This document shows positions 1,036 to 61,768 of a stretch of DNA of 64,000 bases, in pieces. The notes under the pieces were generated by a model. That model was not told where the DNA came from. It did no database searches and saw nothing but the letters and a program-made list of their open reading frames with translations. This stretch comes from Vibrio sp. CDRSL-10 TSBA. Lineage in GTDB: Bacteria > Pseudomonadota > Gammaproteobacteria > Enterobacterales > Vibrionaceae. How positions within the stretch are numbered: position 1 is the stretch's first letter; the number at the start of each line of letters is the position of its first letter. Where the stretch lies: NCBI GenBank assembly GCA_039696685.1, contig CP155566.1:1798001-1862000 (forward strand). The letters run 5' to 3'. Position numbers and translations under genes: made by a program.

Positions 1036-1687
1036 TCAGGCTTTGAGCCAACCTTGTTGGGTGGCGTGTTCAATCATTTGCTGTGCGTAATCCCACAGCG
1101 CATGTGAACCGTCATCAATGCGGCGGTTCACGGTCAGGGCTTGTTGGCGGGTAACGCCATTTTCTAACCAGCTTTGACCCTGGTTATGATAATTAAGCAG
1201 CATTGGGATCAGGCGGTCCAATGCTTTGGCAAACTTCGCATCGGCGCTTTGTGCCGCTTCAAACTCGCGCCACAGGGCAAACAGTTTCTTCACCCTGCTC
1301 TTGCGGCAGCATACCGAACAGACGCTCAGCCGCGGCCAGCTCTTTTGCTTCTTGCTGCGCGCTGGCGACACTGTCATAAACAAAGGTGTCACCGGCATCA
1401 ATTTCTACCATGTCATGCATCAGCAGCATTTTGACTACCCGGCCGATATCCACCGGCTGGTTGGCATGCTCTTCCATCAGCAAAGCCATCATAGCCACAT
1501 GCCAACTGTGCTCTGCACTGTTCTCGGCCCGCCCCTGCGCACTTTTAATCCGCGTACGGCGTAACACGCTTTTCAGGCGATCCAGCTCCAGCACCAACGC
1601 CAGTTGCTGCTGCATTCTTGTTAGCTTATCGGTTGCAGAGTGGTCCGTTTCAGGCTGATTCGGAGTGCTATCGGGATCGAAGGGCAT
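1036..1687 (-). CDS. HD-domain 5'-nucleotidase-like protein (YfbR/HDDC2 superfamily), one frame break
   Basis: Probable metal-dependent nucleotidase, about 216 residues after repair. An N-terminal helix (LVLELDRLKSVLRRT) leads into ENSAEHSWHVAMMALLM and LLMHDMVEIDAGDTF: the H...HD...D pattern of HD phosphohydrolases that dephosphorylate (deoxy)nucleoside monophosphates. The C-terminal half (LFALWREFEAAQSADAKF) matches the HDDC2 type more than E. coli YfbR. The frame breaks at 1284-1288, where GTTTC (GAAAC on the coding strand) stands for GTTC; removing one base gives QGEELFALWREFE. ATG at 1687 is preferred to a TTG at 1705. Substrate is inferred from the superfamily. Confidence 0.75.
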
Positions 1688-1757
1688 CGTCAATTCTCGT
1701 CTCAATTACGGTTTACAAGGCCGTTAAACCGGCGCCTCAGCGCCAGTTCACTGCCCG

Positions 1758-2333
1758 CTACATCTTCCAGTTCGGGTGGCGCAGCGAAGTCAGGTTGTGA
1801 TCTTCCCACTTACCGTCAATCAGCAGGTAATCTTTGGCATGCCCTTCCGGTTCGAAACCCAGACCGAGCAGTACCGCTTCACTGCGCTTATTACGCGGCA
1901 TATATGCCGCCATAATGCGGTGCATATTTTGTACGCGAAACATGTAATCACAGGCCATTTTGAGTGCGCGTGACATGATATAGCGTCCCTGAGCCTGCTC
2001 GGCCAGCGAATAACCGACATTACAGGCATAAAACGGAAAGCGCGAAATATTGCTGAACGAGATAGTCCCCAGCATGGCGTGAGTTTTTACATCAATGATC
2101 AGCAGATAGTAGCCGAGCGCCATTTTGTGCAGTTCATGCAGTTTGATCAAGCGCTGCTGCCAGCCAAATTCAGTAAAAAACTCACTCTCGCGCAGCGGCT
2201 CCCAGGGTTTCAGGAACGTGCGGTTAGCGATAAAGTAATCCGAGATCAATCCGGCATCACCCGGTTCGGCAGTGCGAAGCAGGATCTCACCGTCCGTTTC
2301 ATACACATGACTGGCGGTACTGTAACTTTCCAT
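1758..2333 (-). CDS. rimJ: Ribosomal protein S5 alanine N-acetyltransferase RimJ
   Basis: GNAT acetyltransferase of 191 residues. E. coli RimJ acetylates the N-terminal alanine of ribosomal protein S5 using acetyl-CoA. Characteristic stretches are present: NRTFLKPWEPLRESEF near the N terminus, GYSLAEQAQGRYIMSRAL in the acetyl-CoA site, and MHRIMAAYMPRNKRSEAVLLGLGFEPEGHAKDYLLIDGKWEDH at the C terminus, almost colinear with the E. coli protein. The start ATG overlaps the TAA of tyrR by one base (TAATG), indicating translational coupling. Related N-acetyltransferases exist, but the FLKPWEP and DYLLIDG signatures make RimJ the best call. Confidence 0.88.
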   Translation of the reverse strand: MESYSTASHVYETDGEILLRTAEPGDAGLISDYFIANRTFLKPWEPLRESEFFTEFGWQQRLIKLHELHKMALGYYLLIIDVKTHAMLGTISFSNISRFPFYACNVGYSLAEQAQGRYIMSRALKMACDYMFRVQNMHRIMAAYMPRNKRSEAVLLGLGFEPEGHAKDYLLIDGKWEDHNLTSLRHPNWKM

Positions 2334-3878
2334 TAGCGCTTCCTGATGCCGTAATCACGCAGTTTATTTGCGATCGACGTATGTGAAACGTTCAGTCGTT
2401 TGGCCAGTTTGCGGCTCGACGGGAACGACTGATACAGACGGTCCAGCACCTGAGCTTCGTACTCTTTCATGATGTCGTCCAGCGCTCCGTCCAGGTTCAC
2501 ATTCGCCATTCCGGAGGAAACCGTTTCCAGCTGTGGCAGATGGAAATATTCGACACCCAGTTTATCATCCGGCATTTCGGTCAGCGCGCGCAGCACCATG
2601 TTGTCCAGCTGACGCATGTTGCCCGGCCACTGATACTGAGCCAGTTGATCAAGCAAGCCCTCTTCCAGTTTCGGTTTGAGCATGCCCATTTTGTGACAGT
2701 GCTTGGCAACGAAAAGCTCCAGCAGCGGTTGTACATCGCTCGGGCGCTCACGCAGCGGCGGAATACGCAGGGTCAGCACGTTGAGGCGGTAAAACAGGTC
2801 TTCGCGAAACTTACCCGATTCGGCCAGCTCAGCCAGGTTATGCCGGGTTGAAGCCAGCACCCGAACATCAACATGCACTTCGTGTTTCTTCGCCGACACG
2901 ACGGAAAGTGCCATCCTGCAGGAAGCGCAGCAGTTTGATCTGCAGATGCGGACTCATTTCACCAATTTCGTCCAGGAATACCGTGCCGCCGTTCGCCTGT
3001 TCGAAAATACCTTTATGGCCCTGCTGATGGTTAAACGACCCCGGGGCATGACCAAACAGCTCGGTTTCAGCGACATCATCCGGCATTGAGGCACAGCTCA
3101 GGACCAGAAACGGCGCTTCGGAACGATTAGAACGATTGTGACAGGCACGGGCCAGCATCTCTTTACCGGTGCCGGTTTCGCCTTCAATCAGCAGCGGCTG
3201 ATCGAGCATAGCGAGCTTTTTCGCCTGATTAATCAGCGTTTTATGACGGTTCGATACACCAACAAAGTGTTCAAAACCGAGATTATTGTGCAGCGGCAGG
3301 TTATCGTCAGCGACCACGTTGGCGTTTGCTGAACGAATGATCATCATGGAGCTCGCCAGAGTGGACTCTTTTGACTCACCGGTAATGTAGACCGGCATCA
3401 GCTCCATTACATAATCGAGACCATCCAGCACCACTTCTTCACGTACCCGTGACTTGCTGCCTTCCACCCAACGGGCGAAATTGAACGCCGGCAGCAGCGT
3501 CGAGACATGCGCGCCGATCATCTCTTGTTCATCTTTATGAAACAGCGACTGGGCAGAATGGTTCGCCATATCGACCGAGCCTTTCAGATCAATCGCCAGT
3601 ACTGCATCAGGCAGGTTGTTGAGCAGCGAAATCAGTTCCGTGTTGTGACGCTCAATCGGCATAAACTGAATTTTGCGCACGTCCCTGACGCCGGGAATAC
3701 GACGAATTTCAGCCATCAGTTCACTGAAGGTTTCAAAATCGATGTCCGGGCAGTTGAGGTAAATAATACCAATCACATCGATTTCAATGCCGCGCAAATC
3801 AATATTTTTGGATGCAAGAATATCGAGCAGTTCCCGGGTCAAACCGAGTCTGTCTTCACAAGAGACTTCAAGACGCAC
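2333..3878 (-). CDS. tyrR: Aromatic amino-acid transcriptional regulator TyrR, one frame break
   Basis: About 514 residues after repair; E. coli TyrR has 513. Order: an N-terminal ACT domain ([20 protein letters not shown]), a PAS-like region, an AAA+ domain with Walker A GETGTGKE and the [12 protein letters not shown]alker B region, and a C-terminal helix-turn-helix ([22 protein letters not shown]). TyrR represses or activates genes for aromatic amino-acid synthesis and uptake in response to Tyr, Phe and Trp. The frame breaks at 2884-2888 (GTTTC for GTTC); deletion of one base yields [15 protein letters not shown]. Where sigma-54 activators have GAFTGA, this protein has GSFNHQ. The start is GTG at 3878, with AGGAA upstream, matching the E. 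coli N terminus. Confidence 0.93.
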
Positions 3879-3980
3879 TGAATCTATTCCTAATCAGAAA
3901 GTGTCACGAAAAGTTGACAGTAGTTTCTATCAAGGCCCGTAATGCGTCAAGCAATCTCTTGTTTCAACGGCCACTTTCGC

Positions 3981-5004
3981 CTATTTGACGGTAAGCGCCG
4001 TGACTTTCGCCACGATTTGTTTACGGATTGCACCTAATTTGACCGCGCGATCTTTGTGCCACGGCAATGGGCGCAGTAAAGACATCGCTTTCAGCCCCAG
4101 ACGTGCGGTGAGAATACCGATGCCGAGCCCCTGTCCGGCGCGGGCCGACACTTTACCGGCCAGATCCATCGTCAGCAGATCCATACTGGCATCCACCGCC
4201 AGCTCACTGGCCCCGGCTGCCGCCATATTGACCAGCACAGCTTTAAACAGCTTGAGGCGTGACCAGTAGCCCAGTTCAACACCGTACAGTTCGGCCAGTT
4301 GATCGATCATTTTAAAGTTGCGCCAGGCGACCAGCAGCATGTCCGCAACGGCTAACGGGCTGATAGCCACCAGCGCTGCGGACTCTGTAGCATATTGCGA
4401 CACCAGCTTAGTCGCCTTTTTATCTTGTTCACTGACCACCATGGCATCATACATATCCAGCACTTCGGCGTCGCTGTGGCTGTTATCAAGTGAATTCTGC
4501 CAACGCTGGAATGCCGCGCTCTGCGGCTGGATACCGCCCTGTTTCGCCACATCACGGCAGAATGCTTCACCCTGTCCCACCGCATTAGTGGCAATCAGAT
4601 TCTCGGCCCGCTCCTGAACCGAAAAGTGGTGACGCAGCTGACGCAACTTCCACAGCTCTTTACCTATAGCGCCGATACCCAAACCGGCCAGAAACCGAAA
4701 TAAATCCGCTCCAGCCCAAGCTGAGCCAGTCGGCTGTTTGCACAGAGGTGACCACGCTATCGATGGCCTGCCAGCCCACCAGGCCAGAAAACGCACCCAG
4801 CATAGTCACGGTAAACCATTTACGCCCTCGTTTAGGGCGAATAACCTGCTCAAGTTCAGCTTCCGCTTGTGTCTCTTGCGGCTCCGCAACACTAGGAACG
4901 AATTTCTCCTGCTCAGTAAACTGCTGCTGAGTATTGAGTTCAATGTGCGTTTCTTCACTGCTTAGTGGCTGCTCAAAAACCTGACGGGTTTTGTATTCGC
5001 TCAT
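3981..5004 (-). CDS. ycjF: YcjF family inner-membrane protein (DUF697), one frame break
   Basis: About 340 residues after repair. The N-terminal 90 residues are charged and cytosolic, followed by two hydrophobic segments ([16 protein letters not shown] and the repaired [14 protein letters not shown]) and a C-terminal DUF697 domain with more hydrophobic stretches ([19 protein letters not shown]). The function of YcjF is not established; it is encoded next to the YcjX GTPase-like protein in stress-linked loci. The break lies at 4691-4695 (GAAAC on the plus strand for GAAC). Its ATG overlaps the ycjX stop codon (ATGA), so the two are coupled. E. coli also has ycjX, ycjF and tyrR in this order. 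Confidence 0.88.
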
Positions 5005-6381
5005 TTCAGTTTGTCTCCAATCAGTGTATCCAACGCTTTATCCAGACGAATATGCTTCAGCGGTTCATCCTGATGACCTGACATCGGGCGGAACGCGGTA
5101 AAATCGAACGACTGTTTGTGCCAGAAGTCGGCATTGGGCAGCCGTTTAGGCACCTCTCCGGGATAGACCGTTATGTTGTCCCCTTGCAGCGTCGTGCCCT
5201 GGATGGCCGACACTCTGCCCTGCCCGGTTTCAATATGGCCGGACTGCGTCGCTCTGACCGATGCCATACTCAAACAGCTCATCTCTATATTTTCATACGC
5301 GGTATGCTGCCAGGCCGGATGGATCATCTGTTGCAGTAAAGCCACCATATTTGGATGCTGATCCGGCGTGACGTGATCGGCTTTGGTCGCCGCAAACAAC
5401 ACCTTATCAATTTTGGGTGCAAACAGACGACTGAGCATACCGCTGCGGCCATAACGGAAACTCTGCATGATCTGCTCAAGCGCATCACGCATATCCATAA
5501 AGGATTCATGACCTTCATTGAGCGGTGATAAACAGTCGACCAGTACAATCTGGCGGTCAAACGTTGCGAAGTGATGTTTGTAAAACGCCTTGACCACCTT
5601 GTTCTGATACTCTTCATAGCGCTGTTTCAGCAGCGCCAGCATCGAATGTTTGCCGTTTTTGTGCTGTAACGTATCCGGGCGACACGGAAAAAACTGCAAC
5701 ACCGGCGCACCGGCCAGTTCACCGGGCAGAACAAAACGCCCCGGTTGCACCCAGTGCAGTCCCGCTTCTTTACAACGGTGCAGATAATCGGTGTACAGCG
5801 CCGCAATTTCAGCCAAGGTTTTTTCATTGGCCTCTTGCTGCAAATCCAGCTGTTCTAATTGCACTAACCACTCTTGCGCCAACTCAGCTCGCTTGCCATG
5901 CAAGGCATTAAACTGCTGCGCAGACCAGGTTTCAAAATCGAGTTCCAGCAAGGGTAAATCCAGCAACCACTCGCCCGGATAATCAATCACGTCCAGGTAC
6001 AGGGTCGACGTTTTACTGATCAGCTTGCGGGTGCGGCTCTGGGTTTTGTATTTAATCGCCAGACGAATTTCACTAACATCCCGGGTCGGAAACCGGCCAA
6101 TGTGGCGGGTTGGCATGTAGCTGACTCATGGCTTCATCGTAACCAAAACTTGGTACCATCAAATTGGTTTGCGGAACCCGTTTCGCGCCGATGATACGTT
6201 TATCACGCGCGGCGGCGAGCAGTGGCAAATTGTCATGCGTTGAGGTATGCACCAGTTGATTAACCAGAGAACTGATGAACGCGGTTTTACCGGCCCGCGA
6301 CAACCCGGTCACCGCCAGACGCACATGGGAGTCCAGGCCGCGATGGATTAAATCAGTCATTTCTTGGCTAATACGCTTCAT
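5001..6381 (-). CDS. ycjX: YcjX family putative GTPase (DUF463), one frame break
   Basis: About 459 residues after repair. A P-loop GLSRAGKTAF lies near residue 26, with the LYLDVIDYPGEWLLDL segment as a probable G3-like region and KIDKVLFAATKADHV as a base-recognition-like motif. YcjX is a predicted P-loop nucleotide-binding protein whose cellular role is unsettled. The frame breaks at 6089-6093 (GAAAC for GAAC on the plus strand); removal gives NPPHWPVPTRDVSEIRLA, matching the family. It is the first gene of ycjX-ycjF, with ATGA overlap. The start at 6381 has GGAGA upstream. Confidence 0.88.
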
Positions 6382-6498
6382 TCATCGTCTCCGTAATTAT
6401 TTAAATGCTCCGTCATCATCGGGATGCAATGTCAGGCAATGCTCTGTATTGCTTAACAATCCAAGCCTACCTTACCTAATCTTAATACGAGATGAATA

Positions 6499-8398: not shown

Positions 8399-8615
8399 TG
8401 CATGCCTCGTTATCGTTATGTTACTTCCAAAACAGAGACTTGATCGGCACACAGAGGAACGCAGTAAAGCCAGATAGCGAAATTCGACTGAACGTCCGCC
8501 GTCTGCAACAGTCAAGTCGCTGCTTATTATTGAAGTTTTATCGTGGCGAATATGATACTCTTGCTTTCCTCAACACGCTACGCAGTGATCAGTCCCTTTG
8601 TCACAATTTACACAA

Positions 8616-9983
8616 ATGAATAACAACGAACTTACTCACATCCAGTCCAAGCCGCTTACTTATTACCCGGAACTCGCCAATCAGCTGTTTGCCAAGATTG
8701 AGCATGAGCCCTGGGCGATGATTCTTCGCTCTGCTTCCGAGCAGCATATCGACAGCCGTTTCGATATCGTGGTGATGAATCCTGTCGTGACGCTGACCAC
8801 AGCCGATGAGCAGACACGCATTAGTGAGCCAAGTGGCGAGACAGTGTCACAGGAAGATCCGTTCCATTTGCTGGCACAATTGCAAAGTCGCTACCTGCCG
8901 CAGCTGCAATACCCGCACGATTTACCGTTTGTCGGTGGCGCGGTCGGCTATTTTGCTTACGACCTTGGCCGTCGGGTCGAGCGTTTACCGAGCATTGCCG
9001 AAAAAGATCTGACCGCACCCGACATGGCGGTCGGCCTTTACCAATGGGCAGTGGTGGTTGACCATCAAACCCAAACTGCTTGCGTGGTCGGACAGAATAT
9101 TGCACAGGCCGAACCACTGCTCGCGCAGCACGCCGCAGACAGCCAGGTGCCGTTTGCTCTGACGACCCCATGGCAGTCGAATATGACGCCGGAAAGTTAC
9201 AGCACTAAATTTAATCAGGTGCAGGAATACCTGCGCTCAGGTGACTGTTACCAGATTAACCTGACCCAGCGTTTTCAGGCCGGTTATCAAGGCAGCGAAT
9301 GGCTTGCTTATCTGAAGCTGGAACGCTTTAACCTGGCCCCTTTCTCTGCGTTTATCCGCACCGAAGAGTGTGCCATCCTGAGTGTTTCTCCGGAGCGTTT
9401 CCTGCAGGTCAAAGAGCGGAAAATCGAAACCAAACCGATTAAAGGTACCCGCCCTCGTAGTGAAGACCCGCAACAAGATGCTGCCTTTGCAGATGAGCTG
9501 GCCAATGCAGAAAAGGATCAGGCAGAAAACCTGATGATTGTTGATCTGCTGCGTAACGATATTGGCCGGGTGGCTAAGCCGGGCACAGTGCACGTCCCGA
9601 AATTATTCGAGATTGAAAGTTTCCCCGCAGTTCACCACCTGGTGAGTACGATTCGCGCTCAACTCGATGATCAATATGAGTGTGCGGACCTGCTGCGCGC
9701 CAGTTTCCCGGGCGGTTCGATTACCGGTGCGCCTAAAGTGCGTGCAATGGAAATCATTGAAGAGCTGGAACCGCATCGCCGCAGCGCTTACTGTGGTTCC
9801 ATCGGTTACATCAGCCGTCATGGTCGTATGGATACCAGTATCACCATCCGTACATTGATCGCGCAAAACCAGCAGCTGTATGCCTGGGCCGGTGGTGGCC
9901 TGGTTGCCGACAGCGAATGGAGCGCCGAATATCAGGAAACACTCGATAAGCTGAGCCGTATTTTGCCGGTCCTTGCCGACTGA
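8616..9983 (+). CDS. pabB: Aminodeoxychorismate synthase component I
   Basis: A 455-residue chorismate-utilising enzyme that, with the PabA glutaminase, forms 4-amino-4-deoxychorismate for folate synthesis. Visible family features are GDCYQINLTQRF, IKGTRPRSEDPQQD, LLRNDIGRVAKPGTV, FPGGSITGAPKVRAMEIIEELEP and YCGSIGYISRHGRMDTSITIRT. The PIKGT stretch carries the lysine that distinguishes PabB from the isochorismate and anthranilate synthases. ATG at 8616 is chosen on homology; no good ribosome site is seen there or at a TTG at 8598. Single gene, divergent from fumarase, ended by a strong terminator. Confidence 0.93.
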   Translation: MNNNELTHIQSKPLTYYPELANQLFAKIEHEPWAMILRSASEQHIDSRFDIVVMNPVVTLTTADEQTRISEPSGETVSQEDPFHLLAQLQSRYLPQLQYPHDLPFVGGAVGYFAYDLGRRVERLPSIAEKDLTAPDMAVGLYQWAVVVDHQTQTACVVGQNIAQAEPLLAQHAADSQVPFALTTPWQSNMTPESYSTKFNQVQEYLRSGDCYQINLTQRFQAGYQGSEWLAYLKLERFNLAPFSAFIRTEECAILSVSPERFLQVKERKIETKPIKGTRPRSEDPQQDAAFADELANAEKDQAENLMIVDLLRNDIGRVAKPGTVHVPKLFEIESFPAVHHLVSTIRAQLDDQYECADLLRASFPGGSITGAPKVRAMEIIEELEPHRRSAYCGSIGYISRHGRMDTSITIRTLIAQNQQLYAWAGGGLVADSEWSAEYQETLDKLSRILPVLAD

Positions 9984-10040: not shown

Positions 10041-11334
10041 TCAGGCATCGGCGATCTTGAGTGGTAACGTGAGAAAGAATTCACTCCCTTCCCCTTCCTC
10101 ACTGGACATGTCCAGCTCTCCGCCCAGTAGTTTCCGCCAGTTGCTTGCACACCGGCAGAGCGAGTCCGGCTCCTTGTCTGTTTTGCGCTGTGCTGTGATT
10201 TACCGCGCTGTAGGGATCAAATAATGCCGCGTAGGCTGAAATCGGGATACCAATACCGCTGTCTCTGACCCGCAGCAATAATTGATCATGGCGCCAGCGG
10301 GCTGACACCATCACCTCCCCCTGATCAGTAAACTTAATCGCGTTATCCACCAGATGATGGAGAATCTGCTCAATCTGCTCTTTCGCTCCTACCCAACGTT
10401 TGGGTAATTGGTCACAACTGTCGATAGTGAAAGTCAGTCCTTTATCCATGGCTCGTTGCCCGAATTCTGCCACAAGAAAAGATTCAATCTCCTGCCAGCT
10501 AAATGGAGTCAGTGACAACTGGATACTTCCCGACTGAAGCTGATTGAACTCGTACAAATCTTTCATGATGGCCTGCATCCGGTCACCGCAACGTTGCAAT
10601 GCCGTCAAATGACCCAACTGCTCTTTATTGAGTTTACTGGCCATCAGTTTATCGGAATGTTGCATTAATTCATTGAGCGAGTCGTGCAGCGTTTGTTCGA
10701 TCATGGCCACAAATTGCGTGGTGACCTTTTCCGACACTTCCGCACGTTTGCGTGAAGAGTGCTGGCGCTGCATGATCGACTGACGATGTAACGCACTACA
10801 AAGCAGTTCTGCCACCAGCGACAACTGCTTGACGACAAACTCGCGCTCAACCCGCTCATCTTCCATCTCAAACACCAAATAACCTGCCTTAATACGGTCA
10901 ACCACCAGCGGCAGACACAGGTAATCCTGCTGCCAGTGCGGCACATCGACAAAGGGTTTGACCTCAGCAAGCGCGGGATTGCCCAGCTGTGTGCTTTCGA
11001 TACCATACAGCTGTCCTGCATCTATGTGGACTAAGGCGGAACGTATAGCTGAACTTTGCGCCAGACGTTCAATAAAGGTTGCCAGCAGGCCGCTATCCAA
11101 AGGACGTGACAGGAAAGCACGGCCAAAATAGATCAAGGTGGCATCTATCTGCTCTTCAAACTCAAACTTTTGCAAATCCTGCAAAGACTGTTTCTGCAAT
11201 TGCTTCAGTGCCAGACTGAGCTGCTGATTGACCTGGTACAGCTCATAGCTTTTTTCTTCCAGCAGCTTTTCAGCTTCTTTGCGGGCTGCCTTCTCCCGGA
11301 CCAGTTTGCGTTCCAGTGGCGAGTTAAATTCCAT
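10041..11334 (-). CDS. hnoK: H-NOX-associated sensor histidine kinase with degenerate phosphoacceptor site, one frame break
   Basis: About 430 residues after repair, cytosolic with no membrane segment. An N-terminal coiled coil (RKLVREKAARKEAEKLLEEK) is followed by a GAF-like region, a DHp-like helix and an ATPase domain with N box DNAIKFT, G1 RDSGIGIP and G2 QGAGLALPVCKQLAELLGG. In the DHp helix, where kinases read FLAxMSHELRTPLN, this protein reads FVAMIEQTLHDSLN: the phosphoacceptor histidine is Gln (residue 214), and the nearest His is three residues later. The break lies at 10130-10134 (GTTTC for GTTC); repair gives a C terminus ending LTLPLKIADA at a TGA at 10041. The upstream H-NOX gene suggests it is the NO signalling partner. 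The ATG at 11334 has AGGTGG just upstream. Confidence 0.78.
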
Positions 11335-26622: not shown

Positions 26623-26815
26623 GCAGTTAGGTAACATTAATGGTTGATGCTGACGAATTGACAGGTAATATGTTCCGTTGAATCTGTAAAATTCAATCCA
26701 TCCGAAAGTTCGCTTATTTGTTAACCACAACAAGCGCATCAACAACTGCGCTGAAGCAGTGGCGACCGTTTGAAGTTCGGGTGGAATTTTTACCTCAATG
26801 GAGATTATATCAAAC

Positions 26816-28217
26816 ATGACTTACGCGCCTGTAAAAGACGTACTAAGCGGTAAGCTGGCAGTTGACAGTGAAGTAACTGTTCGCGGCTGGATCCGTACAC
26901 GTCGCGATTCCAAAGCTGGAATTTCTTTCCTTGCCATCTATGACGGCTCTTGTTTCGACCCGATTCAGGCCGTGGTCCCTAATAATCTGAATAATTACAA
27001 CGACGAAGTACTGAAGCTGACAACCGGCTGTTCTGTCGAAGTAACAGGTAAAGTGGTTGAGTCTCCGGCGAGCGGTCAGGATTTTGAACTGGCAGCGACT
27101 GGCGTAAAAGTGGTTGGCTGGGTTGAAGATGCCGATACCTACCCGATGGCAAAAACCCGTCACTCAATTGAGTACTTACGTGAAGTAGCGCACCTGCGTC
27201 CGCGCACTAACGTGATCGGTGCGGTTGCCCGTGTACGTAACTGTCTGTCACAGGCAATTCACCGTTTTTACCATGAGCAAGGCTACTATTGGGTGTCTGC
27301 ACCACTGATCACTGCATCTGATGCCGAAGGTGCCGGTGAGATGTTCCGTGTCTCAACTCTGGACATGGAAAACCTGCCACGCACCGACAAAGGTGCGGTG
27401 GATTACAACGAAGATTTCTTCGGTAAAGAAACCTTCCTGACCGTATCTGGTCAGCTGAACGCCGAAGCCTACGCTTGTGCGCTGAGCAAGGTGTACACCT
27501 TTGGCCCGACTTTCCGTGCTGAAAACTCAAACACCAGCCGTCACCTGGCGGAATTCTGGATGGTTGAGCCTGAAGTCGCGTTTGCTGATCTGAACGATGT
27601 CGCGAAACTGGCCGAAGACATGCTGAAATACGTGTTTAAAGCGGTACTGGCAGAGCGTCGTGATGACCTGGAATTCTTCGCGCAACGTATCGACAAAGAT
27701 GCAGTGACTCGTCTGGAGAAATTTGTTTCTTCTGACTTCGCTCAGGTTGACTACACTGACGCGATCGAGATCCTGCTCAAATCAGGTAAAGAGTTCGAAT
27801 TCCCGGTTGAATGGGGTATCGACCTGGCATCAGAAACACGAGCGTTTCCTGGCTGAAGAGCACTTCGAAGCTCCGGTTATCGTGAAGAACTATCCTAAAG
27901 ACATCAAAGCGTTCTACATGCGTATGAACGACGATGGCAAAACGGTTGCAGCAATGGACGTTCTGGCACCGGGTATCGGTGAAATCATCGGTGGTTCACA
28001 GCGTGAAGAGCGCCTGGACGTACTGGATGCGCGTATGGTGGAAATGGGTATCGACCCTGAACACATGAACTGGTACCGTGATCTGCGCCGTTACGGCACA
28101 GTACCACACGCAGGTTTCGGCCTGGGCTTCGAGCGCCTGGTTTCTTACGTAACCGGTATGGGTAACGTTCGTGACGTGATCCCGTTCCCTCGTACGCCAC
28201 GCAGTGCAAACTTCTAA
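26816..28217 (+). CDS. asnS: Asparaginyl-tRNA synthetase, one frame break
   Basis: Class II aminoacyl-tRNA synthetase of 466 residues after repair, identical in length to E. coli AsnRS. An OB-fold anticodon-binding domain ([29 protein letters not shown]) precedes the catalytic core with motif 2 [21 protein letters not shown] and motif 3 [15 protein letters not shown]. The frame breaks at 27833-27837 (GAAAC for GAAC); removing one A gives [21 protein letters not shown]. An essential gene cannot tolerate this break, so it is an error in the sequence, not a mutation. ATG at 26816 follows the family N terminus ([10 protein letters not shown]). Confidence 0.97.
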
Positions 28218-38323: not shown

Positions 38324-38962
38324 TTATTCCAGCAACCCATGTTGAACAGCGTATTGAGCCAGTTCAGCGGTACTGTGAATATCCAATTTGTGCTTGATGT
38401 TCTGACGATGCGTCTCGACTGTGCGGTAGCTGATATTAAGCAGGGACGCGATCTTCTTGCTGCTGTGTCCCTGAGCGACAAGCTTCAGTACCGCCTCTTC
38501 TCTGCGACTGAGCGGATTTGGCTTAAGCGCCACAGGTTCCACATCCTGTGTAAACAAGGTCTGGGTTGCGGATTCGCAAAAGTAAGTCGAACCAAGATTC
38601 ACGGTTTTAATCGCCTGAACCATTTTTTCCGCTGAAATTTCCTTGAGCATGTAGCCCACTGCACCAGCCTGCATCACTTTCATGATGTATTCACGGTTAT
38701 CGTGCATCGTCAGCATCAAAACCTTAGCATCAGGCACTGCTTCCTTAATCAGACGGGTCGCATCAATACCATTCATAATCGGCATGCTGACGTCCATCAG
38801 AATCACATCCGGTCGATGCTGTTTAACCACTTCCAGCGCCTCAACGCCATTTCCGGCCGTGGCAACGACCTCTATTTCCGGTTCCATTTCCAGGCGGGCC
38901 ATAAACCCTTCCAGCACGACCTGATGGTCATCCACAATCACTACTCTAATTGGCTTTTCCAT
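38324..38962 (-). CDS. NarL/FixJ-family response regulator
   Basis: A 212-residue regulator: receiver domain with acidic pair VDDH near residue 11, phosphoacceptor Asp57 (VILMDVSMP), then a LuxR-type helix-turn-helix (LSRREEAVLKLVAQGHSSKKIASLLNISYRTVETHRQNIKHKL). The start at 38962 has GGAT upstream and overlaps the end of the kinase gene by 17 bases; a longer reading from GTG 39019 is less likely. It is paired with the sensor kinase upstream and lies behind the TRAP genes on the same strand, so it may regulate them. Confidence 0.88.
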   Translation of the reverse strand: MEKPIRVVIVDDHQVVLEGFMARLEMEPEIEVVATAGNGVEALEVVKQHRPDVILMDVSMPIMNGIDATRLIKEAVPDAKVLMLTMHDNREYIMKVMQAGAVGYMLKEISAEKMVQAIKTVNLGSTYFCESATQTLFTQDVEPVALKPNPLSRREEAVLKLVAQGHSSKKIASLLNISYRTVETHRQNIKHKLDIHSTAELAQYAVQHGLLE

Positions 38963-40313
38963 ACATTGATCCATCCAGTTGCAGCAGAACGGTAATTTCG
39001 GTTCCGAACCCGGGCTCACTCATCAATTCCAGATCACCACCGAGAAATTCGACCCTCTCTTGCATGTTGCGTAACCCGATACCATTTTTCGCCAACGCTC
39101 CTTTGAGATTAAAACCGACACCATCGTCACGAATAATCAGTTGCAGCATGCTACCCATCTGCTGCACGATCACGCTGACATGCTTCGCCCGCGCGTGTTT
39201 TTCAATATTATTCAGCGATTCCTGCACTACCCGATATAAGGTGGTGGACACCTCAGATTTGAGTTTATAACCGGGCGGTGTATCAAACAGGCTTTCGGTC
39301 TGAATGCCGGAATGAGACTGAAAATCATCAAGCAAGGTGACGATCGCAGCCTGCAGACCGATATCATCCAGCGCACTGGGACGCAGATTGTGTGAGATCC
39401 TGCGTACTTCATTAATCGCGGTCATCAGGGATTGCTGCGCTTTCTCGGCATGCCGTGCCAGTGCGTCATCTTTCAGCTTGTAACTAAGCAGCTCCAGATG
39501 GCATTTGCTCGAGACCAGCAGTTGATTGATACCGTCATGCAGTTCCCGCGCGAGATGTTTTTTCTCATCTTCCTGAAACATCACTGTTTTATGCGCCAGT
39601 TCTTTGAGGTTTTTATCGGCCAGACGATGCTCGTGCAAATTAATCGCCAATGTCAGCACGATAATGACCGCTACCGTGACCACCAGAATGACGACCACCG
39701 AAAAGAAGGTGGTATCGATATTGTTATTGATCGTGGCCTGCATGGCCGCGACTTCCTGACTGACATCTTCGATATACAGTCCTGTGCCAACCATCCAGCC
39801 CCATTTGTCCAGCCACTCAACATAACTCAGCTTGGGAACAATCTCGCCACTGGAAGGTTTCTGCCACAGATACTGATGAAAACCACCGCCTGACTGCGCC
39901 TGAAACAACAACGCCTCAATCAGGTAGTCGCCTTCACTATCCTGAAGTTTCAGCAAATCACGGCCAATCAGCTCCGATTGAATGGGATGCACCAGATTGA
40001 CACCATGCTGGTCGTAAACAAAAAAGTAACCGTCTGCGCCGTAACGCAAGCGGGTGAGGATCTGTTTTACCCTCTCCTGTGCATCTTGCTGTGACAACCG
40101 GGGGTCGTTGTACACCAGGCTAATGGAGTCCAGCGCCAAATCGACACTGTCTTTAAGCGCCGTTTCACGTGCTTTAATCAGATTAGCGCGGAAACTCTCC
40201 ACTTCCCGTTCACCAAGGCGTTTGGCCTGATGAATCGAAATCCAGCTGATACTGGCCGTCACCAACAGCAGAGGTAACAGTGTCAGTAATATCAATTTGG
40301 CTTTGAGAGGCAT
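38946..40313 (-). CDS. Cache-domain sensor histidine kinase (HisKA_3, NarX/DegS type)
   Basis: About 455 residues. Helix 1 (LILLTLLPLLLVTASISWI), a single-Cache type 2 periplasmic domain (GADGYFFVYDQHGVNLVHP, WGWMVGTGLYIEDV), helix 2 (FFSVVVILVVTVAVIIVLTLAI), a phosphoacceptor in the HisKA_3 motif KKHLARELHDGINQLL, and an HATPase domain with DDGVGFN. This Cache type often senses small carboxylates. The start is placed at 40313, after a hairpin that would cover a longer start at 40355. It is in a minus-strand run dctP-dctQ-dctM-kinase-regulator, consistent with control of TRAP uptake by its substrate. Confidence 0.87.
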   Translation of the reverse strand: MPLKAKLILLTLLPLLLVTASISWISIHQAKRLGEREVESFRANLIKARETALKDSVDLALDSISLVYNDPRLSQQDAQERVKQILTRLRYGADGYFFVYDQHGVNLVHPIQSELIGRDLLKLQDSEGDYLIEALLFQAQSGGGFHQYLWQKPSSGEIVPKLSYVEWLDKWGWMVGTGLYIEDVSQEVAAMQATINNNIDTTFFSVVVILVVTVAVIIVLTLAINLHEHRLADKNLKELAHKTVMFQEDEKKHLARELHDGINQLLVSSKCHLELLSYKLKDDALARHAEKAQQSLMTAINEVRRISHNLRPSALDDIGLQAAIVTLLDDFQSHSGIQTESLFDTPPGYKLKSEVSTTLYRVVQESLNNIEKHARAKHVSVIVQQMGSMLQLIIRDDGVGFNLKGALAKNGIGLRNMQERVEFLGGDLELMSEPGFGTEITVLLQLDGSMYGKAN

Positions 40314-40330
40314 CCGTTTCCCCAGAAATG

Positions 40331-40363
40331 AAAGCGGCTTACTGAACATCAGCAAGCCGCTTT
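40331..40363 (-). terminator. Hairpin between dctM and the sensor kinase gene
   Basis: AAAGCGGCTT and AAGCCGCTTT pair around a 13-base loop. The tract after it (TCATTT on the minus strand) is a poor U run, so it may be only a partial terminator, letting some dctPQM transcription reach the kinase. Confidence 0.6.
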
Positions 40364-42348: not shown

Positions 42349-43438
42349 CTACTGTTCACTATTGAGGTAAGCACGCATTGAAATGTCGGTCCAGGCACGA
42401 ACGTCTTTCATATACTTGGCCTGGGATTCCTGAATTTCTTTTGCTTCAGGATCAGCTGCCGCATGTTGAGCTAACAGACGATCATTGGCCTCGCGCAGCG
42501 CTTTAATAACTTGTGGCGGGAAAGTTTTGACCTTCACATCCGGGTATTCAGTGGTGATGGACGCCCAGTTCTTACCACTTTCATGCACAGACTGGATATA
42601 CATGTCATAGGCCGCGTCACGCATGGCAACACGCAGGATTTCCTGCAGGTCCGCAGGCAGACGTTCCCAGCTGCGTTTATTAATCAGGAACTGCAGTTTC
42701 TGTCGCCGGCTCATGCCAGCCGGTGTAGTAATAAGGGGCGATTTTGTGGAAGCCCATACGCAGGTCAAGTGAAGGACCTACCCATTCCAGCGCATCGATA
42801 GTACGTCGCTCCAGAGAGGTGTACAGCTCTCCTGGGGCAATGTTCGTCGGTTTCGCACCCAACTCAGCCAACACTTCACCGGCAAAACCCGGAATACGCA
42901 TTTTAAGACCTTGCAGATCTTCTACTGAGTTGATCTCTTTCTGGAACCAGCCACCCATCTGTACATCAGTGTTACCGCCGGGGAAAGACAACATGTTGTG
43001 CGGTGCGTACACTTTCTCCATCAGTTCCATACCGCCGCCATGGTAGAACCAGGCGTACTGTTCAGGTGCGGTCATGCCAAACGGCATGGAAGTGAAGTAG
43101 AGGGTATTCGGCACTTTGCCTTTCCAGTAATAAGAAGCCGAGTGCCCCATGTCGTACTGACCAGATTTGACCATATCAAACACGCCCAGCGGCGCTTTGT
43201 GTTTGTTGGCGGAATCAATCCGGATCTGCAGACGACCATTTGACATTTTCTCTGCCATGGCAGCCATATTTTTCGTGGTATCGCCAAAAACCGGAAAATT
43301 CGGACCCCAGGTTTCGGCAAGTTTCAGGCGATACACTTTTTCAGCAGCGCTTACATTGGCAGTAAACAGAGTAAAACAGGCAGTGACAGCAACCACTCCG
43401 GCGGTGACACGTTTTACAGATTTTGAAATCAGACTCAT
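42349..43438 (-). CDS. dctP: TRAP transporter periplasmic binding protein DctP, one frame break
   Basis: About 362 residues after repair, with a Sec signal peptide ending near VSAAEK. DctP features: LKLAETWGPNFPVFGD, KMRIPGFAGEVLAELGAKPTNIAPGELYTSLERRTIDALEWVGPSLD. The NTDVQMGGWF stretch resembles the TakP-like clade that binds 2-oxo acids, so pyruvate or another keto acid is a possible ligand. The frame breaks at 42696-42700 (GTTTC for GTTC); repair gives WHEPATELQFLINKRSWERL. ATG at 43438 has AGGGA seven bases upstream. First gene of dctP-dctQ-dctM. Confidence 0.9.
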
Positions 43439-43581
43439 TTTCACGTCCCTTTGTTTTTATTAAGGCTCTGGTGAGCCTTATCTTCTCCCCTACTTTGGGA
43501 GAACTTAGGTGATGATGAAATGAGCGTGATTACGCAGTAATTAACAGATTTGTAGAGGACTCAAACGAAAGGGTTAGGTAG

Positions 43582-45970: not shown

Positions 45971-46520
45971 TTACGATCCTTGCCAGCGACGCACCGGGCC
46001 AGTATCTATATGGACAAACTGGCTCTTGGGATAGTACCCGACACCGCCCGCGTTGAGACTTAATGCTGCATCATGCACTTGTTTTAGTGACACACCATCA
46101 AGGCGAAAATCGATTGCCTGGCCCAACATATGGAAACTTTTTTTCGCCACACCGGAAGAGCGATTGCGCAACATGGCATTGGTTACCGGCGAACGATAAC
46201 CGGAAATAATCTGAACTTCGCTTTCTACCCCCAATAATTGCTGAATGCGAGAAATCTGATCGAACAGATTTTTATCCATCGGATGGGTTTCGTCCTGGCG
46301 GAAATCACGGCAAATGTGATTCAGACGTTGTAACTCAGAACGCACATAGCGCTGACCATTAAAATAACAAGATTCTAATGATTCACCGGTATGCAGGTTA
46401 TTCAGAGCCAACACACGAGGTTTATGGGGATAAGAAGCATGGGCTATGCCCGGAGCGCAGGTTGCAAGCACCAAACCAGAAACCGGCGAACTTTAAAAAA
46501 TCGCGACGTGACAGACTCAA
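45971..46520 (-). CDS. ycbK: YcbK, Tat-exported DUF882 peptidase-like protein, one frame break in the signal peptide
   Basis: About 182 residues after repair, the same length as E. coli YcbK. The repaired N terminus LSLSRRDFLKFAGSGLVLATC is a twin-arginine signal (SRRDFLK). The mature part is an M15/DUF882 zinc-peptidase fold: EVQIISGYRSPVTNAMLR, KKSFHMLGQAIDFRL and FVHIDTGPVRRW. The break lies at 46479-46483 (GAAAC for GAAC). Without repair the gene appears to start internally and its export signal is missed. The start is a TTG at 46520 with AGGTG upstream. Probable periplasmic peptidoglycan hydrolase. Confidence 0.85.
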
Positions 46521-55201: not shown

Positions 55202-55230
55202 GTCAACAATACTTTAATCAACCACAGTCA

Positions 55231-57871
55231 TTACTCGTCAGAGTCACTGTCTGTTGAATCAGTTGTGTTGGTGTCTGACTGCTGTGATTCATCCGATGGA
55301 ACCGACTGCTGTTCAGCATCGATATCTTCCGGTAAATCCGCATCTTCAATTTCTTCAATGCGCTGCAGGCCAACGACTTTTTCGTCTTCAGCGGTACGAA
55401 TCAGTGTCACACCCTGGGTGTTACGACCAACCTGGCTCACTTCAGCAACACGAGTACGAACCAGAGTACCGGCGTTGGTGATCATCATAAATTCATCACC
55501 TTCGTCGACCTGTACCGCACCCACGACTTCGCCGTTACGATCAGAGACTTTGATAGAAACCACACCCTGGGTAGCACGGCTCTTCGCTGGGTACTCAGCC
55601 AGAACTGTACGCTTACCGTAACCATTTTCGGTTACCGTCAGTACGTCACCATCAGTCTTAGGAACGATCAGTGAAACTACCTGATCACCTTCTGCCAGTT
55701 TCATACCACGCACACCTGAAGCGGTACGGCCCATCGCTCGTACTTGATCTTCGTTAAAGCGAACCACTTTACCGAATTTCGAGAACAGCATAATGTTGCT
55801 GTCACCATCCGTGATATCTACACCGATCAGTGAATCGTCGTCACGCAGATTGACGGCAATCAGACCGTTCGCACGTACGTTAGCGAACTGATCAAGCGAA
55901 GTCTTCTTAACTGTACCGTCACCGGTTGCCATGAAGATAAACTTATCTTCCGTGAACTCGGTTACCGGCAGAATCGCTGTGATACGTTCGTTCTCTTCCA
56001 GAGGCAGCAGATTGACGATCGGCTTACCACGTGCCGTACGACTTGCCAGCGGCAATTGGTACACTTTCAGACGGTAAGTCTTACCACGGGTTGAGAAGCA
56101 CAGAATATTATCGTGAGTATTCGCCACCAGCAGACGTTCGATGTAATCTTCGTCCTTCATGCGGGTCGCACTCTTACCTTTACCACCACGACGTTGAGAC
56201 TCATAGTCGCTCAGTAACTGGTACTTAACGTAACCTTCATGTGACAGCGTCACAACCACGTCTTCACGGGCAATCAGCTCTTCCAGATCGATATCGTGGC
56301 TGGCTGCCGTGATTTCAGTGCGGCGAGCATCGCCGAATCCGTCACGAATCGCTTCCAGTTTCTTCACGAATCACTTCCATCAGACGCTCAGTGCTCGCCA
56401 GGATGTGCATCAGTTCTGCAATTTGTTCCAGCAGCTGTTTGTATTCGTCCAGGATCTTCTCATGCTCAAGACCAGTCAGCTTGTGCAGACGAAGGTCAAG
56501 AATCGCTTGAGCCTGTTGTTCAGTCAGGAAGTACTGACCATCACGAATACCGTACTGAGGCTCCAGCCATTCAGGACGAGCAGCATCAGTACCGGCGCGT
56601 TCCAGCATAGCCGCAACGTTACCCAGATCCCAACCACGTGCAATCAGACCCGCTTTGGCTTCTGCCGGCGTTGGCGCTTTACGAATCAGATCAATGATTT
56701 CATCGATGTTCGCCAGAGCCAGTGCCAGACCTTCCAGGATATGGGCACGTTCGCGTGCTTTACGCAGCTCAAAAATAGTACGGCGCGTCACCACTTCACG
56801 ACGGTGATCCACGAAGCACTTCAGCATCTCTTTCAGGTTAAACAGTTTAGGCTGACCATTGTCCAGCGCTACCATGTTAATACCGAAAGTGGTCTGCAGT
56901 TGGGTATTCGTGTACAGGTTGTTCAGAACAACTTCGCCGACAGCATCACGCTTACATTCGATAACAATGCGCATACCATCTTTGTCGGACTCGTCACGCA
57001 GTGCACTGATGCCTTCAACTTTCTTGTCTTTCACCAGTTCAGCGATCTTTTCAATCAGACGCGCTTTGTTTACCTGGTATGGGATCTCGCTGACAATAAT
57101 AGTCTCACGACCGTTTTTGTCTGTTTCGATATCCGCTTTGGAACGCATGTAAATCTTACCGCGGCCCGTTTTGTAAGCATCGATAATGCCTTTACGACCA
57201 CTGATAAGAGCCGCTGTCGGGAAATCAGGACCAGGAATGTAGTCCATCAGTTCATCGATAGTGATCTCTTCGTTGTCGATATAAGCAAGACAGCCGTCAA
57301 CAACTTCTGTCAGGTTATGCGGAGGAATGTTGGTCGCCATACCTACGGCGATACCGGAAGCACCGTTCACCAGCAGGTTTGGAATTTTAGTCGGAAGAAC
57401 CGCAGGGATCTGTTCGGTACCGTCATAGTTCGGTACGTAATCAACCGTTTCTTTGTCCAGGTCAGCCAGCAGCTCATGGGCAATTTTAGACATGCGCACT
57501 TCGGTGTAACGCATTGCCGCGGCGGAGTCACCGTCGATAGAACCAAAGTTACCCTGACCATCGACCAGCATGTAACGCAGCGAGAAAGGCTGCGCCATAC
57601 GTACGATGGTATCGTATACAGCACTGTCGCCGTGCGGGTGATATTTACCGATTACATCACCAACCACACGCGCAGATTTTTTATATGGTTTATTCCAGTC
57701 ATTACCCAGCACATTCATCGCGAACAGTACGCGACGGTGAACTGGTTTTAGGCCATCACGCACATCAGGAAGAGCACGACCCACGATAACTGACATCGCG
57801 TAGTCAAGGTATGAACCTCGTAGCTCATCTTCAATGTTTACGGGCGTGATCTCTTTAGCTAGATCGCTCAT
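55231..57871 (-). CDS. gyrA: DNA gyrase subunit A, one frame break
   Basis: About 879 residues after repair (E. coli 875). The winged-helix/tower domain carries the active-site Tyr122 ([11 protein letters not shown]); the quinolone-determining region is wild type, Ser83 and Asp87 in [11 protein letters not shown]. The C-terminal beta-pinwheel begins with the GyrA box QRRGGKGKS. The frame breaks at 56358-56362 (GTTTC for GTTC); removing one base gives [17 protein letters not shown], as in relatives. An essential gene split at this point cannot be real, so this is a key control for the frame-break pattern. Acidic tail (DSTDSDSDE). Monocistronic, divergent from ubiG. Confidence 0.97.
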
Positions 57872-58221
57872 AGAGCCATTATCCCTCTATAGTTTGATCG
57901 GTATATCCAGACAAAACGAACCCTATGCCGGAATCAACATAAATGGTTTCGTCCACACACCTGGATATTATTGATACTTATAAGGTGAAAAAATATAACA
58001 CAAGTTTCTAAGGTTCGGCATCACTTTCCCTCCCCTTTTATCAGGTTGTGACCTTTGTTGTGAATCAACTGCCGAGAATTTACACACTACTCCCATATCC
58101 AACTGAAAACAGATTATTTTTTGTTCGTTCTTTTTTTATTCAGGCAGAACAACTGGTGTAAGAAGCGATCAGCGCTATAATGCGGATTCATCCATGGACG
58201 CGTAATACAGGCATAACAAGT
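57872..58221. other. Divergent promoter region between gyrA and ubiG
   Basis: About 350 bases holding both start regions. No further gene or clear operator is seen. Confidence 0.5.
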
Positions 58222-58930
58222 ATGAGTAAACCTCAAAACGTCGACCCGAACGAAATCAAGAAGTTCGAAGAAATGGCATCACGTTGGTGGGATCTTGAAG
58301 GCGAGTTTAAACCGCTGCATCAGATCAACCCACTGCGTCTCAATTATGTACAAGAAACGTGTCAACGGCTTGTTTGGCAAAAAAGTTCTCGATGTCGGTT
58401 GCGGCGGTGGCATCCTGGCAGAAAGCATGGCGCGTGAAGGCGCCCAGGTGACCGGACTGGATATGGGGAAAGAGCCGCTGGAAGTGGCCAGACTGCATGC
58501 TCTGGAAACGGGAACCAAACTGGATTACATCCAAAGTACCATTGAAGATCACGCCGAGCAAAACCCGCAGGCTTATGATGTCGTAACCTGTATGGAAATG
58601 CTGGAACATGTTCCGGATCCGCTGTCCGTCATTCAGTCTTGTGCGGCGCTGGTCAAGCCTGGCGGTCATGTCTTCTTCTCGACCCTGAACCGTAACTTTA
58701 AATCTTATCTGTTCGCCATTGTCGGCGCAGAGAAGCTACTCAAGATTGTTCCGCAAGGCACTCACGATCATGAGAAGTTCATTCGTCCTTCAGAAATGAT
58801 GAAAATGATTGACACGACTTCCCTGCAAGAACAAGGGATTACTGGTCTGCAGTACAATCCATTGACGGATACCTACCGCCTCGGTCGCAATGTGGATGTC
58901 AATTACATTGTGCACACAACGCTAATCTGA
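58222..58930 (+). CDS. ubiG: Ubiquinone biosynthesis O-methyltransferase UbiG, one frame break
   Basis: About 235 residues after repair. Class I SAM-dependent methyltransferase that does both O-methylations in ubiquinone synthesis. SAM motif I is [41 protein letters not shown] and [14 protein letters not shown] are conserved. The N-terminal [22 protein letters not shown] is typical of UbiG. The frame breaks at 58354-58358 (GAAAC for GAAC); removal gives [18 protein letters not shown] at 58222 follows the family start ([12 protein letters not shown]). Confidence 0.93.
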
Positions 58931-59045
58931 TGGCTCTGGCATAAGTAGCGTCAGTTTCAGACCTCACTCAGCGGAGCGGAAGACGTCACTGACGACAGTA
59001 TCAACGGTTATGCTGTGGCCACTGATTGTGTAAGTTCATAAAGTG

Positions 59046-59103
59046 TACGCTAAAATCTGCCGTGTGGTTTACCACCACATGGTCAAGTTTTAGCGTATTT
59101 TTG
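59046..59103 (+). terminator. Nested hairpin after ubiG, probable terminator
   Basis: Outer arms TACGCTAAAA (59046-59055) and TTTTAGCGTA (59088-59097) enclose a GTGGT/ACCAC inner stem, followed by TTTTTG. The nested shape is unusual for a simple terminator. It lies 115 bases beyond the ubiG stop. Confidence 0.65.
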
Positions 59104-59282
59104 TATTGATCCTCGCCGTTGATCCGACGAAAACGACGATAGAGTTTTTACCTAAAGATCAAGAGATTTTTTTTCTCTCTTGGTTACGAAAAAAGCGATC
59201 TGAGAATCACGATTTCTTACAAGCAATTCTGCCCTTTCGTCATCGGTGAGTGTCTACTAACTGAATTTTTTTATTTCGCAAG

Positions 59283-59291
59283 TTATCCACA
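59283..59291 (+). promoter_or_regulatory. DnaA box upstream of nrdA
   Basis: TTATCCACA, a perfect DnaA box, about 190 bases before the nrdA start. DnaA control of nrdAB is known in E. coli. Confidence 0.65.
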
Positions 59292-59360
59292 AACTGTTCA
59301 AGATCTCCAACTTGCATTACCCCCTCAATAGCACTATCTTGTAACCCGAACACTGATGCA

Positions 59361-59376
59361 CCCCTACATATAGTGT
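59361..59376. promoter_or_regulatory. NrdR box 1 upstream of nrdA
   Basis: CCCCTACATATAGTGT. The reverse complement reads ACACTATATGTAGGGG, close to the NrdR consensus ACACWATATATWGTGT and mirroring box 2. Confidence 0.8.
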
Positions 59377-59381
59377 TTAGG

Positions 59382-59397
59382 ACACTATATGTAGGGC
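59382..59397. promoter_or_regulatory. NrdR box 2 upstream of nrdA
   Basis: ACACTATATGTAGGGC, the inverted partner of box 1. The box centres are 21 bp apart, about two helical turns, so both lie on one face of the DNA. Confidence 0.8.
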
Positions 59398-59483
59398 GAG
59401 CTTGATCACAAAGCCGGGATTCACTTTACAAGAATTACTCAAAAATACGGCTTTTATCAGTTTTGTTAGGGAAATAAAGTAGA

Positions 59484-61768
59484 ATGAACCAACAACTCAC
59501 TGTCACCAAGCGTGATGGCCGCAAAGAAAAGATCGATCTGGAAAAGATCCACCGTGTGATCGCATGGGCCGCTGAAGGTCTGGATAATGTCTCTGTATCA
59601 CAAGTAGAACTTCGTGCTCACATCCAGTTCTACGATGGCATTACCACCTCTGACATTCATGAAACCATCATCAAATCCGCTGCGGATCTGATTTCAGAAG
59701 AGACGCCGGATTACCAATACCTGGCTGCACGCCTGGCGGTTTTCCACCTGCGTAAGAAAGCGTATGGCCAGTATGAGCCGCCACTGCTGTTAGATCACGT
59801 ATCTGCGATGGTGGAAAAAGGTAAGTACGACAAGCACCTGCTGGAAGACTATACACGCGAAGAATTTGAGTTGATGAATGACTTCATCGACCATCGCCGT
59901 GATTTGAATTTCTCTTACGCAGCAGTCAAACAGCTGGAAGGTAAGTACTTTGTACAAAACCGCGTAACCGGTCAGATCTACGAGAGTGCACAGTTTCCTG
60001 TACATTCTGGTCGCAGCATGCCTGTTCGCTAAATACCCGAAAGATACGCGTCTGGATTACGTAAAACGTTTTTACGATGCGACATCGACGTTCAAGATTT
60101 CATTGCCTACGCCAATTATGTCTGGCGTGCGCACACCTACCCGTCAGTTCAGTTCATGTGTACTGATCGAGTGTGGTGACAGCCTTGATTCAATCAACGC
60201 AACAGCAAGCTCTATCGTACGTTATGTTTCCCAACGTGCCGGTATCGGTATTAACGCGGGTCGTATTCGTGCTCTGGGCTCTGAAATCCGCGGTGGTGAA
60301 GCATTCCACACAGGTTGTATCCCGTTCTACAAATACTTCCAGACCGCGGTTAAATGCTGTTCTCAAGGTGGTGTTCGTGGTGGCGCAGCGACTGTGTTCT
60401 ACCCTGTTTGGCACGGTGAAGTTGAATCTCTGCTGGTACTGAAAAACAACCGCGGCGTTGAAGAAAACCGTGTTCGTCATATGGACTACGGTGTGCAACT
60501 GAACAAGCTGATGTACAAACGTCTGGTGGAAGGTGGCAACATCACTCTGTTTTCACCGTCTGATGTACCGGGCCTGTACGATGCATTTTTCCAGGACCAG
60601 GACGAGTTCGAACGCCTATATGTAAAATACGAAAACGATCCTTCGATCAAACAGCGTAGCGTTAAAGCGGTTGAGCTGTTCTCTCTGCTGATGCAGGAGC
60701 GCGCATCAACTGGTCGTATTTACATTCAGAAACGTCGACCACTGTAATACTCACAGCCCGTTTGATGCGAGCGTTGCTCCGGTACGTCAGTCCAACCTGT
60801 GTCTGGAAATTGCTCTGCCGACCAAACCTCTGGTTAACGTTGAAGATGACAGCGGCGAAATCGCTCTGTGTACACTGTCTGCATTTAACCTGGGTTCAAT
60901 CCAGAATCTGGATGATTTTGAAGAACTGGCTGAGCTTGTGGTACGTGCGCTTGATGCACTGCTCGATTACCAGGACTACCCGCTGCCAGCGGCTTACAAG
61001 TCAACCATGAACCGTCGTACTCTGGGTGTGGGTGTTATCAACTACGCATACTACCTGGCGAAAAACGGTGTGAAATACTCGGATGGCAGTGCGAATGCCC
61101 TGACTCACCGCACCTTTGAGGCGATGCAGTACTACCTGCTGAAAGCGTCGGTGAACCTGGCTAAAGAGCAAGGCGCATGTCCGGCGTTTAACGAGACCAA
61201 CTATGCGAAAGGTCTGCTGCCGATTGATACTTATAAGAACGATATCAATCTGATCTGTGACGAAGCCCTGCATTACGACTGGGATGCACTGCGCAGCGAG
61301 ATCATGGAGCATGGTCTGCGTAACTCAACACTGACGGCTCTGATGCCTTCAGAAACGTCATCGCAGATTTCAAACGCAACCAACGGTATCGAGCCGCCAC
61401 GTGGTTACGTTTCCGTAAAAGCGTCTAAAGATGGTATTCTGAAACAGGTTGTTCCTGAGTTCACTCGCCTGAAAGACAACTATGAACTGCTGTGGAACAT
61501 TGGTTCAAATGATGGTTATCTGCACTTAGTCGGTATCATGCAGAAATTTGTTGACCAGGCAATTTCAGCTAATACTAACTATGACCCAAGTCGTTACGAA
61601 AGCGGCAAGGTTCCAATGAAGAAACTGCTTCAGGACCTGCTGACTGCGTATAAATTTGGTGTGAAAACACTGTACTACCATAACACTCGTGATGGTGCAA
61701 AAGACGATCAGAAAGATGCGGTTCAACCAGCCGACGACGATTGCGCAAGCGGTGCTTGTAAGATCTAA
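59484..61768 (+). CDS. nrdA: Class Ia ribonucleotide reductase, alpha subunit; two frame breaks
   Basis: About 760 residues after repair (E. coli 761). It reduces ribonucleoside diphosphates with the NrdB radical subunit. An N-terminal ATP cone ([23 protein letters not shown]) gives activity control. Active-site residues lie in [10 protein letters not shown] and [10 protein letters not shown]; the redox-active C-terminal Cys pair is in CASGACKI. Frame breaks at 59993-59997 (GTTTC for GTTC) and 60729-60733 (GAAAC for GAAC); removing one base each gives [19 protein letters not shown] and [18 protein letters not shown]. Two NrdR boxes and a DnaA box lie upstream. Operon nrdA-nrdB-yfaE. Confidence 0.97.

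Follow-up and report, generated by a model that had tools for sequence, protein, structure and literature searches.

One-base insertions at GAAC/GTTC in a Vibrio assembly: a probable, unintended partial record of a chemical tag

Introduction

The closest precedent for the errors described here comes from Salmonella enterica Cerro 87, for which a nanopore study gives error signals at 3.9-4.4% of GAAC/GTTC sites in the wild type against 0-0.6% without dndC (PMC9069010). Phosphorothioated sites have also been mapped by EcoWI-seq, both in this strain and in E. coli given its dnd genes; the modified GAAC is reported to favour C at -2, A or C at -1, T or G at +1 and G at +2, in GC-rich surroundings (PMC9521924). 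More generally, modifications that are new to base callers are reported to leave motif-specific errors in nanopore consensus genomes (PMC10687267); neither "phosphorothio" nor "dnd" occurs in the main text of that article.

The Vibrio genome considered here resembles Cerro 87 in the site itself, GAAC/GTTC, and in the share of sites touched, about 4%, but the evidence is of another kind: dependence on dnd was established in Cerro 87 through an error-based signal in native reads, scored as per-site error odds against amplified DNA, whereas here the dnd genes are read from the assembly and the error is a one-base insertion that has survived in its consensus (PMC9069010). Its flanks are like those of the EcoWI-seq map in having T or G at +1, G at +2, GC-rich surroundings, A at -1 and only a minority of sites involved, yet they part at the bases before GAAC: Salmonella favours C at -2 followed by A or C, whereas in the Vibrio genome T is nearly excluded at -1, C is not enriched there and the preference for C at -2 falls short of significance (PMC9521924). 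The errors of PMC10687267 concern other bacteria and are mismatches at the motifs GCAGC and GCTGG, unlike the one-base insertion at GAAC seen here.

The window, by which we mean the whole stretch of 64,000 nucleotides that was analysed, is C2:1798001-1862000 in a Vibrio genome of 4,900,437 bases, held in two contigs and listed as 95.9% complete. One of its proteins, of 417 residues, is 84-92% identical to those of Vibrio relatives (best 80 loci), and across 19.6 kb the DNA is about 74% identical to the V. furnissii locus; for one window stretch no near match was found in E. coli.

Frame breaks in the window

One-base breaks at GAAAC/GTTTC are a real feature of this sequence, and they extend far outside the window. 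The initial annotation had listed 24 of them, all attributed to an extra A within GAAC, and on recounting every one of its coordinates begins GAAAC (10) or GTTTC (14), with the base before the GAAC being A 18 times, G 3 times, C 3 times and T never, just as it had stated. The features needed to follow the argument are these:

1284..60733, strand not assigned: one-base length errors at GAAAC/GTTTC, 24 listed (coordinates, scan, tblastn)
1036..1705, minus strand: HD-domain (YfbR-like) gene in two frames (PF13023 positions 1-100 and 98-165 on separate pieces; tblastn)
26798..28217, plus strand: class II (D/K/N) tRNA synthetase gene (asnS of the initial annotation) in two frames (PF00152 positions 7-170 and 173-307)
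38324..40355, minus strand: response-regulator and histidine-kinase genes, a genuine overlap without GAAAC/GTTTC, as counter-example
42349..43444, minus strand: DctP-type solute-binding protein gene in two frames (PF03480 positions 2-202 and 206-284)
55231..57871, minus strand: gyrA in two frames, N-terminal and C-terminal pieces (PF00521, PF03989; tblastn, one query protein)

Two lines of evidence were brought to bear on the breaks. The tblastn queries were 1503 proteins taken from other stretches of Vibrio DNA. Their matches took in 35,552 nt of window sequence and flanked 16 of the listed breaks on either side, and at 15 of these 16 the frame changed within one homologous protein; 5 of the 15 depend on a single query protein each, at the other extreme the tRNA synthetase break is spanned by 60, and a stricter rerun retained 14. 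Within the 35,552 nt covered, no break was found by tblastn that was missing from the list. The second approach was an ab initio scan, in which a codon-phase Markov model was trained on the genome's long open frames and the frames were chosen by a Viterbi path. At its final setting, 29 same-strand switches fell inside the window. Of these, 19 lie no more than 60 nt from a listed position, the motif being missing from the narrow interval itself in 2 cases. The remaining 10 were all without the motif: 7 run in the opposite direction, like gene overlaps, and the other 3, in the insertion direction, fall where adjoining genes belong to different families.

Taken together, tblastn and/or the scan back 21 of the 24 breaks, so that most of the list stood. 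The break at 10130 showed no frame change by tblastn, though covered on both sides, and has only a weak hint, a HATPase domain that ends near it at profile position 88 of 111; those at 46479 and 54457 found no support. The claim that gyrA and asnS are among the broken genes was borne out, in that gyrA and a class II (D/K/N) tRNA synthetase gene each appeared in Pfam searches as two pieces of one family.

Frame switches across the genome

To the window were added 40 evenly spaced 20-kb stretches, a sample of 864 kb in which the scan found 289 switches, 225 in the insertion direction (one base) and 64 in the other. After intervals longer than 80 nt had been dropped (7 insertion-direction, 2 other-direction), GAAAC/GTTTC was present in 185 of 218 insertion-direction switches, where 19.9 would be expected. 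Switches in the other direction had it in 2 of 62, where 4.6 would be; with the window excluded, the figure for the insertion direction was 168 of 196. The sampled stretches that carry the pattern beyond 1284..60733 lie on both contigs. By tblastn alone, 19 breaks were recovered (14 within the window, 5 beyond it), every one with a net shift of +1 and with the motif within 35 nt, for which the chance is 0.165 per break.

Ordinary homopolymer error was considered and rejected: among 18 contexts of the form XAAAY/XTTTY only GAAAC (112 against 9.8 expected) and GTTTC (78 against 11.2) were enriched. Insofar as the errors report a mark, these unbiased scans thus place it at GAAC/GTTC. In the 33 residual insertion-direction switches the over-represented words include AAGGA, AGGAG and AATGA, as would be expected of gene overlaps, and runs of at least five identical bases are rare, with one A run and one T run (counts given without expectation). 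GTAC is a minor site in Salmonella; of the 33 residual switches, 3 had GTTAC and none had GTAAC.

Which GAAC sites are altered

The proposal that only a subset of GAAC sites is affected holds, the share being about 4%, or, uncorrected for recall, 3.5-3.7% of the sites in coding sequence; scaled by the window recall of 19/24, the whole genome would contain roughly 1,300 altered sites. For the comparison of flanks, 10 switches that offered several candidate motifs were left out, and the 175 uniquely placed altered sites were set against coding sites that are intact, 4,817 to 4,819 in number. The base at -1 is A in 55% of altered against 19% of intact sites, and T in 2% against 40% (3/175 against 1917/4819); at +1, G (42%) and T (36%) predominate in altered sites, together 137/175 against 2337/4819 in intact ones, and A falls to 7% from 31%. 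In combination these preferences are pronounced, with A-GAAC-G altered at 50 of 250 sites, T-GAAC at 3 of 1919 and T-GAAC-A at none of 535. Flanking GC is 0.543 in altered and 0.521 in intact sites.

The Salmonella-type flank rule is followed in part, in that T/G at +1, G at +2 and A at -1 agree and C at -1 does not. C at -1 is not by itself enriched, G at -1 is slightly so (p 0.07), and as a class A/G at -1 has an odds ratio of 6.1, against 4.1 for the published A/C; the preference for C at -2 was not significant between altered and intact coding sites (p 0.10). A flank model reached a cross-validated AUC of 0.876, and among contexts identical over the 5 flanking bases to left and right, 26 sites were intact and 5 altered.

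A longer motif was also sought, and no position 7 to 40 bases from GAAC reached p < 0.01, which argues against the bipartite motif of a restriction-modification system; that candidate was rejected, no position beyond 6 bases having passed p < 0.01. Such systems would be expected to show an extended motif with nearly all sites modified, whereas about 4% of sites are altered here, a fraction that near-complete modification with few miscalls would also give and that is therefore not decisive alone.

The dnd genes and candidate methylases

The initial annotation had named dnd genes in advance as a check on its reading, and PADLOC found them in the genome, with matches to DndB, DndC, DndD, DndE, DndF, DndG and DndH. 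The locus lies about 590 kb from the window; dndC, dndD and dndE stand together with dndB, and the optional restriction genes dndFGH are present on the opposite strand, convergent with dndBCDE (L102:1-20000). DndE matches the solved DndE structures PDB 4lrv and 5wtu; for DndC there was no match in PDB. Upstream of dndB (L102:1-20000) is a frame of 675 residues without a PADLOC match.

Both DndD and DndH, the latter found in two pieces, are interrupted by a change of frame, and both overlaps contain the motif; were the interruptions genuine, the proteins for modification and restriction would themselves be truncated. Across the dnd locus and one other locus (L102-L104), 3 of 12 insertion-direction switches are without the motif, one of the 3 being the overlap of dndG and dndH. 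A PAPS-reductase-type gene at L104, about 8500-9200, also lies in two frames, with an insertion-direction switch near GAAAC/GTTTC at roughly that position.

Here the question arises of whether some other modification at GAAC, for example adenine methylation by an enzyme outside the two methylase families searched, misled the base caller. Motif-specific nanopore consensus errors have been described at methylase-type motifs (PMC10687267), and PF02384 gave one weak match, barely above its cut-off; against this, PF01555 had no match in the genome, no extended motif was found, about 4% of sites are altered and a dnd locus is present, and we regard this explanation as improbable.

Ribosomal RNA operons

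The 11 copies of the 23S gene provide a comparison in which the sequence is held constant, and their sole length difference is GAGAAACTC in one copy against GAGAACTC in the other ten, so that identical local sequence can be altered or intact. One unaltered copy, compared with the 23S of four other Vibrio genomes, had no extra base at GAAC, and hence there is no insertion common to all 23S copies. Over the 16S and 23S genes (L105 to L126), 1 GAAC is altered and 466 are intact, where the flank model predicts 19-23 altered, a deficit that is strong if copies are independent and not significant if the state of a site is common to them (about 1.7-2.1 sites expected). The deficit is unexplained; true undermodification, a site state shared by copies or consensus polishing across copies could each produce it.

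Among the 16S genes (L105 to L115), a 14-base insertion near alignment position 196 sets one of the 11 copies apart, and the copies form two variants near alignment position 231, an ordinary rRNA polymorphism. At L160:1622-3719, 17 tRNA genes are densely packed, with Met, Leu and Gln in repeating order.

Other genomes

The effect was sought in dnd-bearing genomes of Vibrio and E. coli that were sampled regardless of sequencing platform. In 17 other dnd-positive Vibrio genomes (20 stretches), the motif was near 2 of 17 insertion-direction switches, which is chance level, with low power in a few stretches (e.g., L212, with 20% scored coding). At 80 other Vibrio loci, not selected for dnd, it was near 1 of 36 insertion-direction switches, and in the other direction near 17 of 106, against 10% by chance, these loci being homologous and not independent. 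A dndC similar in DNA was found in 204 of 5,426 E. coli genomes (about 67-68% among the matches listed); in 8 of these 204 records the motif was in none of 8 insertion-direction switches and dndBCDE was intact as annotated, with coding sequences marked as frameshifted in four regions, two of which contain GAAAC/GTTTC somewhere.

DndD was matched in 29 of 227 Vibrio genomes, and in 23/394, 10/369 and 18/398 genomes of other sets; the sets overlap, and the studied genome is counted in all four. It is in two adjacent pieces in two further genomes, G246 (L186), in which the predicted switch is without the motif, and G766 (L229, L249), in which GAAAC is near the break and only 3 of 13 insertion-direction switches in 137 kb are near the motif; G588, G1060 and G1024 have partial DndD matches. 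As no other sampled genome clearly shows the effect, the link to dnd rests on one genome, the exact site, the flanks and the literature, and given the 17 Vibrio and 8 E. coli genomes with dnd and without the effect, it must also depend on how the studied genome was sequenced. Its absence elsewhere fits an artefact of a single sequencing run.

That absence from the 17 sampled dnd-positive Vibrio genomes, and the strong dependence on flanks (A-GAAC-G against T-GAAC, and the AUC of the flank model), would suit a base caller or polisher that errs on sequence context alone, with no modification involved. Yet the same sequence yields both outcomes, in the 23S copies and in the identical 5-base contexts, and CAAAC, TAAAC, GAAAG and the other XAAAY/XTTTY contexts are not enriched, while the site affected is the exact known phosphorothioation site in a genome that has the enzymes, DndD being found in 29 of 227 Vibrio genomes with this one among them; a pure context error seems to us an unlikely account. 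That the insertions are real mutations, in a mutator or phase-variable genome, was rejected as most improbable, for although they stand in the record, 185 of 218 insertion-direction breaks fall at a single motif, and gyrA and a tRNA synthetase gene, of essential type, are found as two pieces, as is dndD itself.

Interpretation

It is very probable that a minority of the GAAC sites carried phosphorothioate and that this caused the AA run to be overcalled in the consensus. The initial annotation had proposed that a backbone or base modification misled a long-read base caller, a reading strengthened by the dnd genes, the partial flank match and the roughly 4% of sites hit. The extra A would not be part of the living genome. 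DndBCDE would place sulfur in place of a backbone oxygen at a minority of GAAC/GTTC sites, and a modified site would alter the local signal, be it nanopore current or dwell, or polymerase kinetics; from the disturbed signal, the two-base A run of GAAC would be overcalled by one in the consensus, and with the overcall left uncorrected the record would keep a partial and unintended imprint of the modification. The site, the flanks and the presence of the enzymes point to phosphorothioate as the mark, and the platform was presumably a long-read one, most likely nanopore, with a polymerase-based platform possible instead. On this reading the errors resemble an incomplete map, made by accident, of a chemical tag at GAAC, a site probably marked by the sulfur-tagging system.

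Among titles and the openings of abstracts, a search that left most subscription papers outside its scope, no description of consensus insertions at phosphorothioate sites was found. It is a tentative and, taken as a whole, rather doubtful proposition that an assembly without any signal data holds a readable partial map of phosphorothioation, together with a Vibrio Dnd rule unlike that of Salmonella (A strongly favoured at -1, T nearly excluded and C not favoured; G or T at +1) and rRNA operons that are nearly free of the mark. If phosphorothioate did give rise to the insertions, some public assemblies of dnd-bearing bacteria would carry false frameshifts in many genes, and one-base insertions limited to GAAC would be a cheap warning of Dnd modification and not of pseudogenes. 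Such errors might then be mined to map phosphorothioation in strains without recourse to chemistry.
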